Of a DNA stretch of 64,000 bases, positions 25,654-39,081 are shown in pieces; the first letter of the stretch is position 1; each line of letters begins with the position of its first letter. The DNA comes from Taxawa tesnikishii (nom. ined.) (Eukaryota; Ascomycota; Dothideomycetes; Dothideales), in assembly GCA_030247885.1 (NCBI GenBank), contig JAPDRO010000006.1, positions 496,001 to 560,000 of the forward strand, in the 5' to 3' direction. The position numbers and the translations under genes are program-made. Below the pieces are notes generated by a model that was not told the DNA's origin, made no database searches, and saw only the letters and a program-made list of their open reading frames with translations.

Positions 25654-27149
25654 ATGGCCGGCGGCGGTATACCCATGAATGTCCAGACGGTCGAGGGCGG
25701 CTACCTAACCGGCAAGAAGCTCATCTACCCTGTCTCTCTCATCATCTCCCTCTTTTTCCTGTGGGGTTTCTCGTACGGTCTTCTCGATGTCCTCAACAAG
25801 CACTTCCAGACTGTCCTTGGCATCACAAAGCTCGAATCTACCGGTCTCCAGGTCATGTACTTTGGCGGTGGTTACCTTCTTTACTCCCCGATCGCTGCTG
25901 AGGTTCTGAAGAGGAAGGGCTACAAGTTCACCATCCTTATGGGTCTCTCGCTCTACTCTCTCGGCGCCATCATGTTTTGGCCGACTGCGCACTTTTCCAA
26001 CCCTTCCAACGGCAAGGCAGCCTTCGGTGGCTTCTGTGCCTGCACTCTCGTCATCGCCTGCGGCCTTGCTACTCTCGAGACTGCCGCCAACTCTTACGCT
26101 GTCGTCATTGGTGCTCCCGAGACCGCCTCCGCTCGTTTGCAGTTCTGCCAGGCTTGGAACGGTGTCGCTTCCTTCATTGGACCACTCATTGCCTCCCATG
26201 CCTTCTTCACCGGCTCCAACGCCAACAACCTCACCAACGTGCAATATGTCTACCTCGCCGTCGCCTGCGCCGGTGCCGCCGTTGGCGTCATGTTCCTCTT
26301 CTCCAAACTGCCGGAGGTGTCCGAGGGTGCCCAACGCTCTGGTTCTGTCGTGTCCGAGACTGCCCTGGAGCTCGGTGTTGACCAGTATGGCCACGTTGTC
26401 GGCAGCGGTCCTCTGTACAAGCAGTACAACATGATCTTCGGTTTCATCGCCCAGTTCTGCTACGTCGGTGCTCAGGTTACCGTCGCGACCTTCTTCATCA
26501 ACTACGCCACCGAGAATGCACCTTTGACCTCTGCCCAGGCCTCCAACTACCTGTCTTACGGTCTGATCGTCTTCACCGTCGGCCGTTTCATTGCCGCAGG
26601 CCTGGCGACCATCTTTGAGTCCAACTTCCTGCTTACAGTCTACGCCGTCTGCGCCATCGTCATCAACGCCTACCTCTGCGCCGGTCACGGCAAGAACGCC
26701 GTTGCCGTCCTGATCTGCATCTTCTTTTCGAGGCACCAATGTACCCCACCATCTTCACCCTCGGTACCGCCAATCTTGGCCGCCACACACGCCGTGGTGC
26801 CGGCATCCTGGTCATGGGTGTCTCCGGTGGTGCTGTATTCCCACCAATCCAGGGTGCCATTGCCACCGCTGCCAACACCCGTATCTCCTACGTCGTGCCT
26901 CTCGTTGGCTTCTGCGTTGTCCTCGGGTACGCTGCCTACCACTGGGTCCGCCACGGCTGCAAGGTCATGCGCATCAAGGCCTCGGAGGTTGTTGCCGTTT
27001 CCATGGAGGGTGGTGCCGTTGGCGGTGTCGTCGAGACCGTCCACTACGACACTCAGAAGCTGTCCGAGAAGGCTGTCGAGGAGATCAGGAGGAACAGCGT
27101 CGGCAACGTCAGCGTGTCTGGTGTCACTGGCGGCGTTGGCAAGTTTTAG
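25654..27149 (+). CDS. L-fucose permease-like MFS transporter (FHS family); one frame break
   Basis: Intronless, about 498 residues, 12 predicted membrane segments. The N-terminus LFFLWGFSYGLLDVLNKHFQ is the FucP signature, followed by YFGGGYLL and LATLETAANSYAVVIG. The second half has FEAPMYPTIFTLGTANLGR and GILVMGVSGGAVFPPIQG. One base is missing in the T run 26725-26728, just before EAPMYP: the upstream frame runs on into unrelated residues while the correct C-terminus continues in the next frame to the TAG at 27147-27149, and adding one base makes an exact 499-codon gene. Strong C-ending codon bias, stronger than in neighbours, suggests high expression. Substrate is probably a hexose or fucose. 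Confidence 0.9.
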
Positions 27150-31774: not shown

Positions 31775-34700
31775 TTAGTCGTCTTCCGAATACGTCTTGC
31801 TGAACTTGACCAATGAGCCGAAGTCCTCATGTCCTTTTACCCTTGTCCTTCCTTCGACTCCTACACCTAATTCACCTTCTCCGTCCTTGCTCTGCAATAG
31901 CCAGCTCTTGGGCACGAGCTTGAACCGGCCATCGTCCCCCTTGATGAGTCGGCATCTCTCTTCTCGAGAACAAGTGTCCTGCCGTTGGTCTTTGGCGGGA
32001 CCACCGCTGGCGCACCCCGCTCGGTAAGAGCATTTCGGCGACGCTCACGATGCTCAAGGATGTCGACATCAATAGTATCGAGCGCGATGAAACGGTAGAC
32101 GAAGATCGTTTTCCTCTGACCGGGCCGCCGCACACGACCAATAGCTTGAGTCATGTTGGATTCATAAACGTATTGAGAGTCGACGAGCAGCGGAGAGAAG
32201 AAAATCACGTGATTGGCATTAGTCAAGTTGCTATGGATGTCAGCAAAGGGAAACAAGTGGTTAGGGTAGCAGAGGCAACTCACATTCCAGCGGCGGAAGC
32301 GTTGGAGCCGTTGAGTATTATGACGGTGCTTCGCTCCTCGCTCTCGTCCGTCTTAAAGTCCTCGATGACATTCTCATTTGACGGCTGGCCCGGCTTTACA
32401 TTCTCTTTCACGGTTGTATGCCTGATCCTACACGTAGTAAAGGCTTCTGAGACCTGGTCGATCTGCGACTCGTGACTGACGAAAAGGATACCTTGGTCTC
32501 CCTTACGTTCTATCTCTTGAACAAGCTCGATAACGTCCGTGACCTTCTGTCCGTAGTCAATTTCCGAGTTAGCAGCGCTAGAGACGTGGCCCATCTTCTT
32601 GGCCCAAAGCAAGTCGTAGTCCTTTACTAGGGCTCTACATCCAGGAGCGCCGCATAAGCCCAGTTTGTCCTTGCAAACCGCAAGGCAGTCCACACAAATG
32701 ACATGACCGCAGGAAGAGGAGGCAGCTAAGTGATCAGTAGTAAGTCCATTGCCAGCGCAGCCTCCGCAGTCACAACACCGAGCCCTAGCCTCGTTTGCAT
32801 CCCTGGGATCCTGTAGGCGTTGACAACTGTGAACAAAACGAATGTACCTCTTCGCGTCGCGGTACCGCTTAGCAAACTGGTTGGTTTCGCTGATTTGGGT
32901 CCTCATGGCTGCGCCCGCCTCTTTGCTGTCTTCTTTGGCTGCACTGACGCCATCGATGTCTTCGTCCGCATCTTCCTGCTCGCCCTCGCTGGGTTTCTTC
33001 TTCGTCTTCCTTGCCTTCTGGAGTACGCTCTCGGGGAGCGGATGGTTCCTTTCAGCGGCTCCGATCATGGATGCAACGGACAAAGCTGTCTCCTCGTCTT
33101 CGAGTATATCATCGTCAACGACGCTCTTCTTCCACATCATAAGTGGATCCACATTATGATAAGAAGCAGCAGCCATCTGCTGACTTTGAAAGATAGCGAT
33201 TTTCAGGCGCGCCTCGGCAGCAGCACAGTCGCTCTCGCGCTTATGCAGCAGAGCAACCAGGCCGGATGTCTCGCCGCCCGAGCCTTGAGCGCGTGAAAAG
33301 CATGCTGCTTGCTTAAGCAATGCCTGTTCTGCAGTAGTTGCACTACTCAAGCTCTCTAAGACTCGCTGCTCACGGTCACGTTCCGATGCAGTCTTTTTGT
33401 TTCCCTTCTTGATACGCATATCCTGGGAATTGAGACGCTCTGAAAGTTCCGTATAGACGATCCTGTGATCTAGGCCTAACGTGACGGGCACTATGCTGTC
33501 TATGTATGGGTGGTCCTTGAACTCTAGGATGTTCTGACGTACGAAGTCGTTCAGGAACTCCTGTGCAGTCTCGCAGATCCGGGAATGGACGGCATGGGAG
33601 GGGCGTTCCGGAAGGATTGAAATCTCTCCAAATCGGTCATGCTATCTCTAATGGTTTTCAGATTGGAGCTGGAGATGAGTCCCGGAGCGTTGTCCCCAAC
33701 GCGTAGAGGAACACCGATCAAGCTAGCAATTTCCGCAATATCATAAGGATCTCTTAGGGGTGCAGTAGCTGATAGTGCCCAACGCTTGTCCGCCTTAATA
33801 GCTAATATCGAAGCCTTGTCTTTCGGCTTGAGGTAAGTGAACTCATCAACAATGACCCGATTGAAATGGAACATCTCGAAAAGACATTTGTCCAGATTGA
33901 TGTTGATATCCTTTGGTGCACTGGCCTTCTTCTTCGTTGTCGTACAATCCTTCTTCGCGTTTTTCTGTTGGTTGTTTGCGTTGACATCCTTGAATTTCTT
34001 CAAGGCATAGTCTTTGCCCGTCAAACGTTTTGATGGTACTAACGCCTGGAACTGCTCGTCATCTAGATGAGCTTGGAACTTGCGCTCAATCTCTAAGGCA
34101 AGGGTGCGCACTCCTGACTGCTGTAGGATCTCTAGATGTGCTGGAATCTGGTTGATAGCGAACTCTAACCATGCCTTGAATTCCCGACGATTGACAGAGC
34201 TTGGGTAAGGGACTCCAGCGAATCGAGCAAGACGCCATACATAGGTCGGGTGGGTGAAGATGTCCTGGTTGACGACGATGATGCGAGCGGCCTCAAAATC
34301 CTGGATCTTCTGCCTGCTCAATTGCGCAAGCTCACTAATGACAATTGTTTGCTTATGAACCACCGGGCCAAGGACTTTCTTGACCTCACTTTCCCACTGC
34401 TTGACCAAGGTCTTGGGACATACCACAAGTGTTGCCGAGATCTTGATGAAGCCATGAGCTTTAGCGTCCTTCATGTTCGCTAGGATGTCTTCGACGGATT
34501 TGCTCTGGAATTCGGAATGAACAAGAGTTAACGAGGTAACCGTCTTTCCGAATCCAGGGTGATCTGCAAGGATACCACCTCTGACATGAACAGGCGCCTG
34601 AGCTCTCGCTTCCGCTCTCCAGCCAAGGTATGGTAACAAGGTCTCTTCGCTCTCTTCGACAACAGTGCGCTTGCCCTCTCCGGCTTCTTGGGCACGCATC

Positions 34701-37700
34701 CATGCTAGGGACTGTAACTGCTTCGGCCACAATCCTACCTCGATCTTGAGCTGTTCAGTAAAAGATACCCCTGGATCGTTGCCTCTCAAGGTAAATGTTG
34801 GCAAAGCAGTAGGGTGAGATTCCACGTAATGCGTGTCAAGCTTCCATTTGACAGAGGCTGTAGGGGTGGTACCCTTTCCTTCCAATACACGATGGAGCTT
34901 TGCTAGTGCTCTGTGAACCATTGAAGGAACATTAAGTCCAACCTTGATGGAGCCGTTCTTGCTGCCGGAACCTCTGAATGAACACTCAACAGCGAACAGA
35001 TCCGGCCGACGTTTCAGCGCGAGCTCATAACTGGTAGCACTTGCCGGGTCTTCGTATGCACGCACAGTATCCTTTGGTCCGCTATGTAGCTTCCATCGAA
35101 GTTGAGGTGTCTTGGGCGCACATTGATCGCAAATTCCAGATCCACATGCGGTTGAGTCAATAAACTGCCAGTCTGGAACACGTAACAAAGAATTTAGAGG
35201 TTCAAACGCCCATGCAAAAGCAGTGAAGAATGCCTTGTCATGTGTGCCTATGCGCTGAGAGCTTTGCTGCCAAAGCGGACTCACGACAGCAGTGGTTGGG
35301 ATGGTAAATGAGATCAGAGTACTCGCGGACGAGCAATCGTGAATTGGACCTAGTGACGACGTGATAAAATCAGACGTACATACCGCCAGGTTGGTGTCAA
35401 CCGCGTCCAGCTTTGTCCCTGTAGAGGTTGTCCAGTGACCGTCAACAAAGCCCTGCGGGGATGTGAAAGCCTTTCCTGGGAGTGTCAATGGTCTCCAAGC
35501 GGGATCAAGACGTGCAGTGACCTGACGAATCTCATCGTACTCCAGTCTGGAACAGTCGTTAGCAAAAACGAATCCATCCATGCTTGGATCGCCGATACGA
35601 CTAGGATCCCAGAACAGATACATCGATTTTCCCCTGCTAGAGATCCTTTTATAGAGACTCTCGCCGGCGGTGCCGCAGTTAGGCAGATACTCGTATAGAC
35701 CTGCAATATCCACCACACGTTCGGTGGATGAGAGGTCTATACGCAGTTGCTGCCACATCGATTCATCGCGCGAAACCGGGAGGTTGAGGCGGGCTTTCCA
35801 TGAGGGAACCTTCTTGCCTTTACCCTGGATGGACAGGTTGAACAGAGTGTCTGCAGGCAATCTCCACTCCCATTGAGCTCCTAGAAGACTCGTACCGCAC
35901 ATGGACCTCGCAATAGGCTGCCGCAGGAGTGGCGCAGTTGGTCGTTCCCGGACAACTCCCGATCGGGCCTAGCGAACAGGCGCCATTCAGCGCTTGCGCC
36001 GCTTAGACAAAGCTCTAATGAAGCATGGGGCGCAACGTAAATGACCGTCCAACTATCTCGTCTTCGACACTGACTGAAGTTAAAGATGTCTTGGGTGGCT
36101 CGTTCAACAGCTGCTATGTACGCCTTTGTAGCCCCGGAAAGCAGGCTCTTTAGTGAAACAGGAGGAGACAGCTGAAGGCGCGTTGGGAATCTTGACTTCC
36201 ATTTTTGGAGGAAGTGCGATGGCGCATCGCGAGATTCCTTTGCTTATGATCAGGGCTGTAGTTATGCATAGGTTTGTTCCCACACGCCAGACAGGTCGTG
36301 TGACCGCAATCCTGACAGGTTTGGACGGCTTTATCAGAGGTTTCGGTTTGTGCCTCGCAGTAACATCTTCTGCTCGAACGTTCTGCATCCTGTATTAGCT
36401 CTTGGACAGCCATGCCTGAGAAGGCGGCCGTCAAGTTCCAGTTTGACAGTACCCCGTCGGTAATGGGGGTAACCTGCGAAGCCGACATCGCGAGAGCTGA
36501 GCTTTCGGGCTCGAGTTTGTGATCGTGCCGAAGAATCTTCGAGCCTGCGATCAGAGCAGAGAGTATTGCGGATCCGACCACAGTGGAGGACATTGCGTTG
36601 CCGGCCATGTCTTGCACCTGCGCACGGGTTTCAGTCGTAAAAGTGATCTTGTCGAGAGGTATCCCTTGCAATTTGAAGCACTCCTGGAAGGTGAGAGGTC
36701 CACCCCGATCTGTGACGAAGAAAATGCCGGTCGGAGTCAAGCAGGGTGTGATGCCGAAAGGCGTGCCATCCACGAACCTATCCACATTCTGAGAGAGGTC
36801 CCAGACACGTGTCTTGAATTGCACATCGTAGCCGCCGCCGTTCGGGTGAGCTTTGCGAAGCAATGAGCAATCTTGCATGTCCCATACACGCTCAACCTGT
36901 CTGGCGTGCCAAACCTTGTCAGCATGATCGGGGACGACGAGCAAGCCACTCTCCTGCCAATTGGTGTACGGCCTAGCATTTCCAATCCCCTTCGCATGAC
37001 GGTATCTAATGTGCCGTATCTCGCATTTGGACCAGTCCACTTCGCGCGAAACCGTGTCAAACTGGGATAACTTCGCAAGCTGCGTCTTCAACTGCACCGC
37101 ACTTGGATCGTCATTAGGCTGCAGAAATGCTGAGATGGAGGAGCTTGCCGGACGCTTGAACTTCCTCATGAGATCCGTCCAACGCTCCGCAGCGTTGGTG
37201 TCGGATGCTAAGTGGTTCTTGTCCAGGCATACCATATACCCACGTTGACGGGTTTGAGGTAGGTAGAAATCCTTCGTGTCTACCAACACACCTCCTACTT
37301 GGTAGCCGATACGCTCGTACTCTTCAAGCATTGCATCCCATGGAGCGTTGAAAACATTCTCCAGAATCAGGATGCGTGGGCGGTATAGTTCAGCGTACTT
37401 GAGAACGGCGTGGAAGGTATCGCCAGATTCTCCGCCGTCTGCTAGACCCTTCTGATGTGCATTCAATCCGGAAAAGTCTTTGCATGAGGTTCCAGCTATT
37501 ACCAAATCAAGATTGTCTGGGATGCGCACCTGAGCACCATATACTGTTGTGGCCGTATGCGTAGTGTCTTTCGCCTTGGTTATCTCCGTAATGTCCCGAA
37601 AGATAATCGGCGGCTGGAAGTTGCGCTCAATGTAAGCTTGCTTGAACGGGTCGATTTCTGCGCTGAACAAGTGCTCAAGATGGAAAGCTTCTTTAGAGAG

Positions 37701-38782
37701 GATTTTCATTACATCGTTAACCATCTCTAGTGCGAGTAGCGGAGCTTCGGTGCCAGAGCACATTGTTGCGACACGTAAAGGACGTGATTGCAGATGGTTG
37801 GACACCTTGCCTAGCCCAAGTTTCAATGCCTTTTCCGTCATGTCATGGAAAATGTCTTTGACGTCTGACAGTGGTGGCAGATCAAAATTGATGCCCTTCT
37901 CTTTGTTTTCACCTGGTAACCTAGTGGTTAGGTTGATCATCCTCTGCTTGGTCTTTTTCCCAGCCGACTTGAGCTCGATCGAGTTGGATGCCGAGGGCGG
38001 GCCTTTGCTGGCTTTTGACTTGCGTTGACTGTGTGGTTCGTTATCGGAGAACTGTTCGCTAGGTTGGTGGTCTTCCTCTTCAGTCTCTCCGAGCGATTCG
38101 TCGTCGTCTTCATAGTCCACTGAAGCCTCCGCTGCCTCATCCATGTCGTCTTTCAACTCATAGTCCGAGTCTTCCATGCGCGCTGTACGGACATGTCTCG
38201 CAGGTCTCCGCAGCTCTTCCTCAGGTTCAACATCGTCGTCACTGTATTCACGTGCGGACGCGTATGAGATACGTGCAGCCGCACGTCGCGGTCGGCGGTT
38301 GGACATGACTGTTGTTTCCATCTCTCGTACCGGGGTCGCTGGTTCGTGTTCTTCTGTTGAAAGGAGCGACGATCCTGCGTGTGCTGTTCCGCTGGGCCGG
38401 GCAGAGACGTGGACTACTGGCGCAGTCAGCCAACTTCATCTGTGACTGTGTCTGTGTGGTACGACCTACTTTCGACGTGTGAGAACTTTCTCCGCTTCAT
38501 CGGCGGCTCGCTGGCATGATTCGCATGTAAGAACAAGCCTTCCTCGCAGGGGTGATCGATTGCTGTTCCAGCGCGTTCCATGTCCACACTATCGACGTGT
38601 GTGATGGAACTATCCTCAGATGGTTGTCGCGGCGCGGGTGCGGGTGCGGGTGCTCGCCCGAAGAACGAGCTGATTGCTCGTTGCTCTGTACGGTTAAGCG
38701 GCGCGCGTTTGCGCGACATGGACAATCGTGCCATCGTAGGCACTATTGAGCGTGCCGGCGACGACTGGAGGGGGTGTGACAA
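31775..38782 (-). CDS. DNMT5: DNMT5: cytosine-5 methyltransferase, RING and SNF2 ATPase fusion; five frame breaks
   Basis: About 2319 residues with one 53 bp intron (32231..32283). Order: PIP-box-like QRAISSFF (34-41); acidic region; C5 methyltransferase with VATMCSGTEAP (~335), catalytic TSCKDFSGLN (~437), ILENVFNAPWD (~475), QTRQRGYMVC and GNAMSSTVVGSAIL (~754); a Cys-rich knuckle CYCEAQ..CQDCGHTTCLACG (~815); SNF2 motif I DHPGFGKTVTS (~1403) and DEFTYLKP (~1650); a RING-type cluster (2002-2048); and helicase motif VI QAIGRVRRPGQ. In studied fungi this family maintains CpG methylation using ATP. Single bases are missing near 38430, 36240, 35940, 33601 and 31951; with five added the length is exactly 2320 codons. 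If the first break is not real, translation could begin at 38321. Confidence 0.9.
38660..38683 (-). other. Putative PCNA-interacting (PIP) motif in the DNMT5 N-terminus
   Basis: QRAISSFF fits Q-x-x-I-x-x-F-F, with basic residues before it (SRKRAPLNRTE) and an Arg after it (GR). It lies in residues 34-41 of the first 119-codon frame, which joins the rest of DNMT5 only if one base is missing near 38430. Confidence 0.5.
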
Positions 38783-38946: not shown

Positions 38947-39081
38947 GCAGAATCAGAACCAGAACTAGAACCAGAACTAGAATCAGAACTAGAATCAGAA
39001 CTAGAATCAGAACTAGAATCAGAACCAGAATCAGAACCAGAATCAGAACCAGAATCAGAGTCAGAATCAGAGTCAGAATCA
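38947..39081. repeat. Hexanucleotide array CAGAAT/CAGAAC/TAGAAC
   Basis: Roughly 22 six-base units with ordered variants (AGAACC, AGAACT, AGAATC, AGAGTC) in blocks, between the divergent DNMT5 and 2H phosphoesterase genes. On the plus strand it translates as alternating Glu and Ser/Pro/Leu inside a 102-codon open frame (38836..39144), which I do not regard as a gene. Confidence 0.9.

Follow-up and report, generated by a model that had tools for sequence, protein, structure and literature searches.

According to a 2026 review, Cryptococcus Dnmt5 carries out ATP-coupled maintenance of CpG methylation; the same text calls the way in which DNMT5 reaches hemimethylated CpG 'only partly resolved' and describes the enzyme as independent of the replication apparatus (PMC13297926). 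We analysed a 64,000-nucleotide stretch (hereafter the window; G000:C31:496001-560000, where C31 is the contig) of the genome of Taxawa tesnikishii, a fungus listed under unclassified Dothideales and isolated from desert soil crust (PMC11195213). On the minus strand, positions 38734 to 31778 of the window read as a single DNMT5 gene, collinear with the solved Cryptococcus Dnmt5, and this gene is probably intact in the organism. DNMT5 is already known from ascomycetes, and the gene as such is ordinary for the group. The Dnmt5 of another ascomycete, Verticillium dahliae, likewise lacks an N-terminal chromo-type domain (PMC8091789) and is absent by name from the 297 proteins compared below. The unexpected part of the Taxawa gene is a motif in exon 1 that resembles a PCNA-interacting peptide (PIP) box and through which the enzyme may dock on PCNA. 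Such a box is found in DNMT1, a maintenance methyltransferase with a Pro-Cys motif, BAH and RFTS domains and no SNF2 part. Rad8, Rad5 and HLTF combine SNF2 with a RING as in DNMT5, but lack a methyltransferase domain; these proteins are linked to PCNA.

From ATG to stop, the gene (31778..38734, minus strand, like all gene features below) comprises three exons, two introns and four frame breaks that we attribute to the assembly. When its pieces were searched separately against the PDB, the methyltransferase (E = 3.3e-130), SNF2 (E = 3.9e-87), RING (E = 1.8e-26) and helicase C (E = 6.5e-15) pieces all matched 7r76, which we take to be Cryptococcus Dnmt5 (PDB title 'DNA repair protein Rad8'), and these four strong matches keep the Dnmt5 order. 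The linker matched the same chain weakly (E = 0.0023), the C-terminal tail had no PDB match, and a Pfam scan of exon 1, linker and tail returned none either. Starting from the N terminus, the protein has a PIP-like box, then the methyltransferase and its Cys knuckle, the linker, SNF2 and the RING, and finally the SNF2 C lobe; both the catalytic and the ATPase motifs are preserved. The Cryptococcus neoformans enzyme (7r76, 7r77, 7r78, 7t02) shows the same domain order, and its TSC, Walker A, DEFT and motif VI sequences are all retained in Taxawa.

The cytosine-5 methyltransferase domain (36576..37763; Pfam PF00145 DNA_methylase, E = 9e-24) contains the catalytic motif TSCKDFS (37470..37490), which aligned to TSCVDYS of 7r76, so that Ser-Cys replaces Pro-Cys as expected of a DNMT5. 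It is followed by an IBR-like, Cys-rich knuckle (36261..36404; aligned to 7r76, Pfam E = 8.5e-4, below the cut-off) and by the segment linking methyltransferase and SNF2 (35884..36243). The SNF2 ATPase, whose frames span assembly breaks, has an N lobe with a DEFT box (33605..34720; Pfam SNF2, E = 1.2e-18, and 7r76), the Walker A motif DHPGFGKT (34541..34564) and a C lobe with motif VI, QAIGRVRRPGQ (31955..32230), both of the latter placed by the 7r76 alignment. Within the SNF2 part, a RING-type Cys/His cluster (32628..32777) also aligned to 7r76, with a Pfam E-value of just 0.1. The conserved C-terminal tail (31778..31955), RLIKGDDGRFKLVPKSW..., had matches in 61 of 295 homologs, with a best identity of 64.5%. 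For the other pieces, the numbers of matched homologs among the same 295 were 294 (methyltransferase), 264 (linker, counted at E ≤ 1e-3), 295 (SNF2), 285 (RING) and 285 (helicase C). Six pieces were tested for their order, exon 1 lying outside this test, and the order was the same in every one of the 255 homologs that matched five or six of them. The sequence-only reading had proposed a DNMT5-type gene with the TSCKDFS methyltransferase, a knuckle, SNF2 and a RING-type cluster, had seen no chromodomain in the N-terminal part, and had named the alignment of the linking segment (about 35900–36240) to DNMT5 proteins as a test; each of these points held up, with the weak Pfam scores for knuckle and RING just given. 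Indeed, no chromodomain was found in a Pfam scan of the gene pieces at E ≤ 0.1, and a search of the genome, which located 16 chromodomain places, gave none on contig C31. Compared with Cryptococcus Dnmt5, the Taxawa protein is thus without the N-terminal chromodomain, a feature of the Cryptococcus type rather than of the whole family, and has a PIP-like box.

Exon 1 (38470..38734) begins MARLSMSRKRAPLNRTEQRAISSFFGR and carries, in its N-terminal tail, the sequence QRAISSFF (residues 18–25; 38660..38683). This fits the PIP box pattern, Q-x-x-hydrophobic-x-x-aromatic-aromatic, and the surrounding peptide, MARLSMSRKRAPLNRTEQRAISSFFGRAPAPAPA, is a predicted PCNA-binding peptide on the grounds of pattern match, family distribution and a PDB profile. 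The sequence-only reading had made no mention of this motif. The exon ends in KRRKFSHVE (38471..38497), the first part of a [KR]xRxL(S/D)xV(E/L)IP motif that crosses intron 1. We assigned exon 1 to the DNMT5 gene because its GT-AG join is in frame, because the NCBI model (P0002) has the same start and because the KRRKFSHVE+I motif is rebuilt across the intron; SHVEIP also occurs in the homologs P0028 and P0072. Motifs of this type (SHVEIP or LDCVLIP-like) were present in 27 of the 67 scored proteins of a mainly Dothideomycete set (those ranked 2–75 in the first of the searches described below), compared with a mean of 0.5 and a maximum of 3 in 200 shuffles. The motif may be a docking peptide of the HP1 type. 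On the plus strand of the window, a run of imperfect AGAACCAGAATC/AGAACTAGAATC-type repeats (~38947–39080) precedes a divergent gene and lies immediately upstream of the point where DNMT5 begins.

To place the PIP-like motif in the family, we combined three protein searches (111 proteins from the first, the best 120 of 622 and the best 120 of 391) into 297 distinct proteins. We scored the 265 that begin with Met and in which methyltransferase motif I is preceded by 60 residues or more; of the 32 dropped, 10 had no recognised motif I. The strict pattern Q-x-x-[ILMV]-x-x-[FYHW]-[FYHW] occurred upstream of the methyltransferase in 123 of the 265, whereas the shuffle means sum to ~0.85, which puts its conservation beyond chance family-wide; since the shuffles ignore relatedness, the Agaricomycete block counts for little more than one event. 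A narrower filter gave 86 of 178, where 200 rounds of shuffling averaged 0.5 and never exceeded 3, and the reversed motif gave 0. With lineages assigned by us from source names, the strict motif was found in Agaricomycetes (105/122), Chytridiomycota (10/13), Taphrinomycotina (1/1), Pezizomycetes (2/2), the Lecanoro-, Coniocybo- and Lichinomycete group (1/5) and, among stramenopiles, in one alga (1/4); five named ascomycetes have it among the 265. Its position varies in chytrids from residue 35 to 393. Furthermore, in 97 motif-bearing Agaricomycete N-termini, the unselected positions G0, K2, S3 and S6 reached 2.6–3.1 bits, compared with ~1 bit in the tail. The DNMT5 of one agaricomycete, Rhodonia placenta (P0079), has QKSITSFF at residue 13 and no chromodomain in its source's Pfam column; its alignment covers 58% of the query at 37% identity. 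The family has another motif hot spot at residues ~1600–1800 (QTxVExFH), which we did not count as a PIP box because it falls within SNF2.

In the mainly Dothideomycete set of 67, looser forms of the motif were commoner than chance. Twelve of these proteins had a hydrophobic-x-x-aromatic-aromatic core no more than 45 residues from the Met (shuffled mean 0.4, maximum 3), and we found the forms DIRSFF, DIRSFY, DIRSFW, DIRSYL, DIRSYM and DIRNFL in 7 (shuffled mean 0.1, maximum 2), four of these at residues 20–26 and three at 84–98. We also compared a profile of 18 pattern-selected DNMT5 N-terminal peptides (A1) with 177,635 distinct PDB sequences. The top three matches were a DNMT1 peptide (6k3a, E = 0.024), a p21 peptide (4rjf, E = 0.28) and Pol32 (E = 0.9), all of which we take to be PCNA-binding segments; the next were HipB antitoxins at E ~2.

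The chromodomain is distributed differently. According to the sources' Pfam columns, PF00385 is present in 13 of the 297 listed proteins, namely in all 10 Tremellomycetes and in 3 chytrids. None of the 10 Tremellomycete proteins has a strict PIP box. Between Agaricomycetes and Tremellomycetes, chromodomain and PIP box are thus exchanged for one another. Both occur together in P0240 of the chytrid Borealophlyctis, with a chromodomain at residues 17–66, the PIP pattern at 146 and the methyltransferase match from 274. In another chytrid, Thoreauomyces (P0259), the chromodomain lies at 1503–1552, beyond the start of SNF2, and is not N-terminal. Two chytrid DNMT5 proteins have an MBD domain according to their sources, P0252 by Pfam (PF01429) and P0270 by its UniRef name.

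Based on these patterns, we predict that Taxawa DNMT5 docks on PCNA through its N-terminal QRAISSFF, which would replace the chromodomain, a reading that we hold to be somewhat better than an even bet. ATP hydrolysis by SNF2 would be coupled to the methylation of hemimethylated CpG, as established in Cryptococcus and assumed here for Taxawa. The N-terminus would bind the PCNA ring via QRAISSFF in the way that DNMT1 does, rather than via a chromodomain reading H3K9me, and DNMT5 would travel with the replication fork, or arrive just behind it, at the place where CpG becomes hemimethylated. One PCNA match was found in the genome, along with one gene for an SRA (UHRF1-like) protein, which could help to select sites. 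The spread of the motif suggests that PCNA docking is widespread in DNMT5, and perhaps old, but missing from the Cryptococcus model. Extended to the family, the proposal becomes tentative, falling a little short of evenly balanced: over much of its range, DNMT5 may be a replication-coupled methyltransferase that rides PCNA by a PIP box, a solution either shared with DNMT1 or reached by convergence. The early fungal form would have combined chromodomain, PIP box, methyltransferase and SNF2, as P0240 does; Agaricomycetes would then have lost the chromodomain, Tremellomycetes the PIP box, and other lineages would have weakened or lost the latter. If this is true, the published replication independence of DNMT5 is a trait of the Cryptococcus model. 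As the PIP-like box is present in 123 of 265 proteins and absent from the lineage of the model enzyme and some others, replication coupling is directly testable by a two-residue change, and the hook, if functional, could help explain how methylation is copied after replication. In the part of the open-access literature that we covered, a PIP box in DNMT5 is nowhere reported; Huff and Zilberman 2014, Dumesic 2020 or Catania 2020 may mention one.

A number of observations weigh against PCNA docking, both in Taxawa and across the family. By BLAST, exon 1 matched 0 of the 295 homologs. Taxawa is the only one of 27 scored named Dothideomycetes with the strict motif, and its relatives have forms that lack the Q, such as DIRSFF. 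In the mainly Dothideomycete set, the strict motif was found in 2 of 67 proteins (Taxawa and P0067), which by itself does not exceed chance (shuffled mean 0.4, maximum 3). It was likewise rare among proteins without an organism name (2/54) and was not seen in the scored Tremellomycetes (0/10), Pucciniomycetes (0/7), Microbotryomycetes (0/2), Eurotiomycetes (0/15), Sordariomycetes (0/2) or Mamiellophyceae (0/1). On a 72-row tree with several long branches and unscored rows, the motif changed at least 12 times, with gains and losses not told apart, and repeated gain is possible. The matches of profile A1 are weak and its peptides were selected by motif, so that they show just that known chains with this pattern are PIP boxes; searched alone against the PDB, the Taxawa peptide had no match. 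Finally, the genome encodes another methyltransferase at C31:700153, which matched 9bap ('DNA (cytosine-5-)-methyltransferase', E = 6e-112) and is DIM-2-like. Almost all methylation in Verticillium and Zymoseptoria is the work of DIM-2 (PMC8091789).

Several of these points would also fit a short linear motif in QxxIxxFF that serves another partner, or that is without function in Taxawa as a product of chance or a relic, in particular the single strict form among named Dothideomycetes, the shuffle-level count in the 67 proteins and the weak PDB E-values. We nevertheless regard this as unlikely, if a serious contender, since 123 of 265 proteins have the strict motif and several deep lineages are represented among them, the N-terminal core forms reach 12 of 67 compared with 0.4 expected, and the three best PDB matches are all PIP segments. 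Alternatively, the PIP box could be real and serve a job like that of Rad5 or HLTF, with the RING-SNF2 half acting at stalled forks (in PCNA ubiquitination or fork remodelling) and methylation being secondary. Relatives indeed appear in some sources as 'DNA repair protein rad8' or 'RAD5', and the review describes the SNF2 part as related to Rad8 (PMC13297926). Such a role would also fit the small effect of Dnmt5 loss on methylation in Verticillium, where the authors speculate on DNA-associated roles beyond methylation (PMC8091789). The methyltransferase motifs are, however, kept in Taxawa, and Cryptococcus Dnmt5 is described in the same review as a maintenance methyltransferase (PMC13297926), so that we consider a mainly Rad5-like function improbable.

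The other two alternatives concern the integrity of the gene, for which its breaks are informative. We counted six, where the sequence-only reading had given five: two introns and four frameshifts. Intron 1 (38417..38469, GTAGGT...CTGAC...CCAG, with an in-frame join) and intron 2 (32231..32283, GTGAGT...GCTGAC...ATAG) are both GT-AG introns of 53 bases, in which a CTGAC branch-site-like sequence precedes the acceptor. Frame breaks 1 (36237..36240, near 36238), 2 (35896..35934, near 35930) and 3 (33599..33608, near 33604) show no intron, as the residues aligned to Dnmt5 on either side follow each other directly, leaving hardly any DNA between them. At break 4 (31945..31965, near 31955), no intron was seen either: the conserved tail begins in a different frame, and the aligned ends in 61 homologs leave ~27 bases where a median of 10 residues has to fit. 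We interpret all four as frameshifts because aligned residues continue across them without DNA for an intron; a model with six introns was rejected, three breaks having no room and the fourth only ~27 bases. Four real frameshifts would make the gene a decaying pseudogene, and four in ~6.8 kb of coding sequence is indeed more than the one each in a transporter and a chaperonin gene, the two genes examined. However, P0001, a 2009-residue protein from a separate public assembly (source code 'lgn', 14,381-base contig), crosses breaks 1–3, break 4 lying outside it. Identity amounts to 99.9, 100 and 100% in its three long segments; in the short linker segment it is 94.8%, with gaps at four positions. 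We infer that the DNA of P0001 is in a single frame across these breaks. P0001 starts at an inner Met and ends at a stop just inside intron 2, as from an intron-blind gene caller. No in-frame stop was found within the gene pieces, and the Taxawa genome is a Nanopore-Illumina hybrid, with BUSCO scores of 92.9% for Nanopore and 97.4% for the Illumina assembly in the column JES_119, which we assigned to Taxawa by elimination (PMC11195213). Because P0001 passes three breaks and two other genes show the same fault, the four frame breaks are most likely assembly indels, and a pseudogene is very improbable. That the methyltransferase and helicase might be two adjacent genes is suggested by the different frames of the pieces, but they form one polypeptide in 7r76 and in the homologs, all 255 testable ones being collinear, which leaves this option next to no weight.

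Of the two other frameshifted genes, the chaperonin lies at C1:528261, where the frameshift was read from the DNA. The other, an MFS sugar-transporter-like gene (window 25654–27149), shifts frame near 26725 at a short single-base run and continues in the next frame, by its look an assembly error. An apparent frameshift pair in HSP70 (C3:494625) was unconfirmed on reading the DNA and was not used. The sequence-only reading had also expected automatic annotation to split DNMT5 into separate genes; NCBI instead has one protein, H2203_003504 (P0002), though a damaged one. Four parts are absent from it (knuckle, linker, a stretch at break 3 and RING cluster), and its C-terminus is in a wrong frame. 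Surveys that rely on P0002 will therefore overlook the true C-terminus as well as knuckle, linker and RING cluster.

In addition to DNMT5 and the DIM-2-like enzyme, the genome has a third methyltransferase, which is RID-like by its motif (L001, C5:762542-763462); its match holds a stop codon that could be an intron or an assembly error. Among the genomic chromodomain matches, seven (L047-L053, on C3, C5 twice, C7, C15, C22 and C29) have an identical score of 53.4 bits. These are perhaps recent copies of a chromovirus-type retrotransposon, unscarred by repeat-induced point mutation (RIP) despite the RID-like gene.

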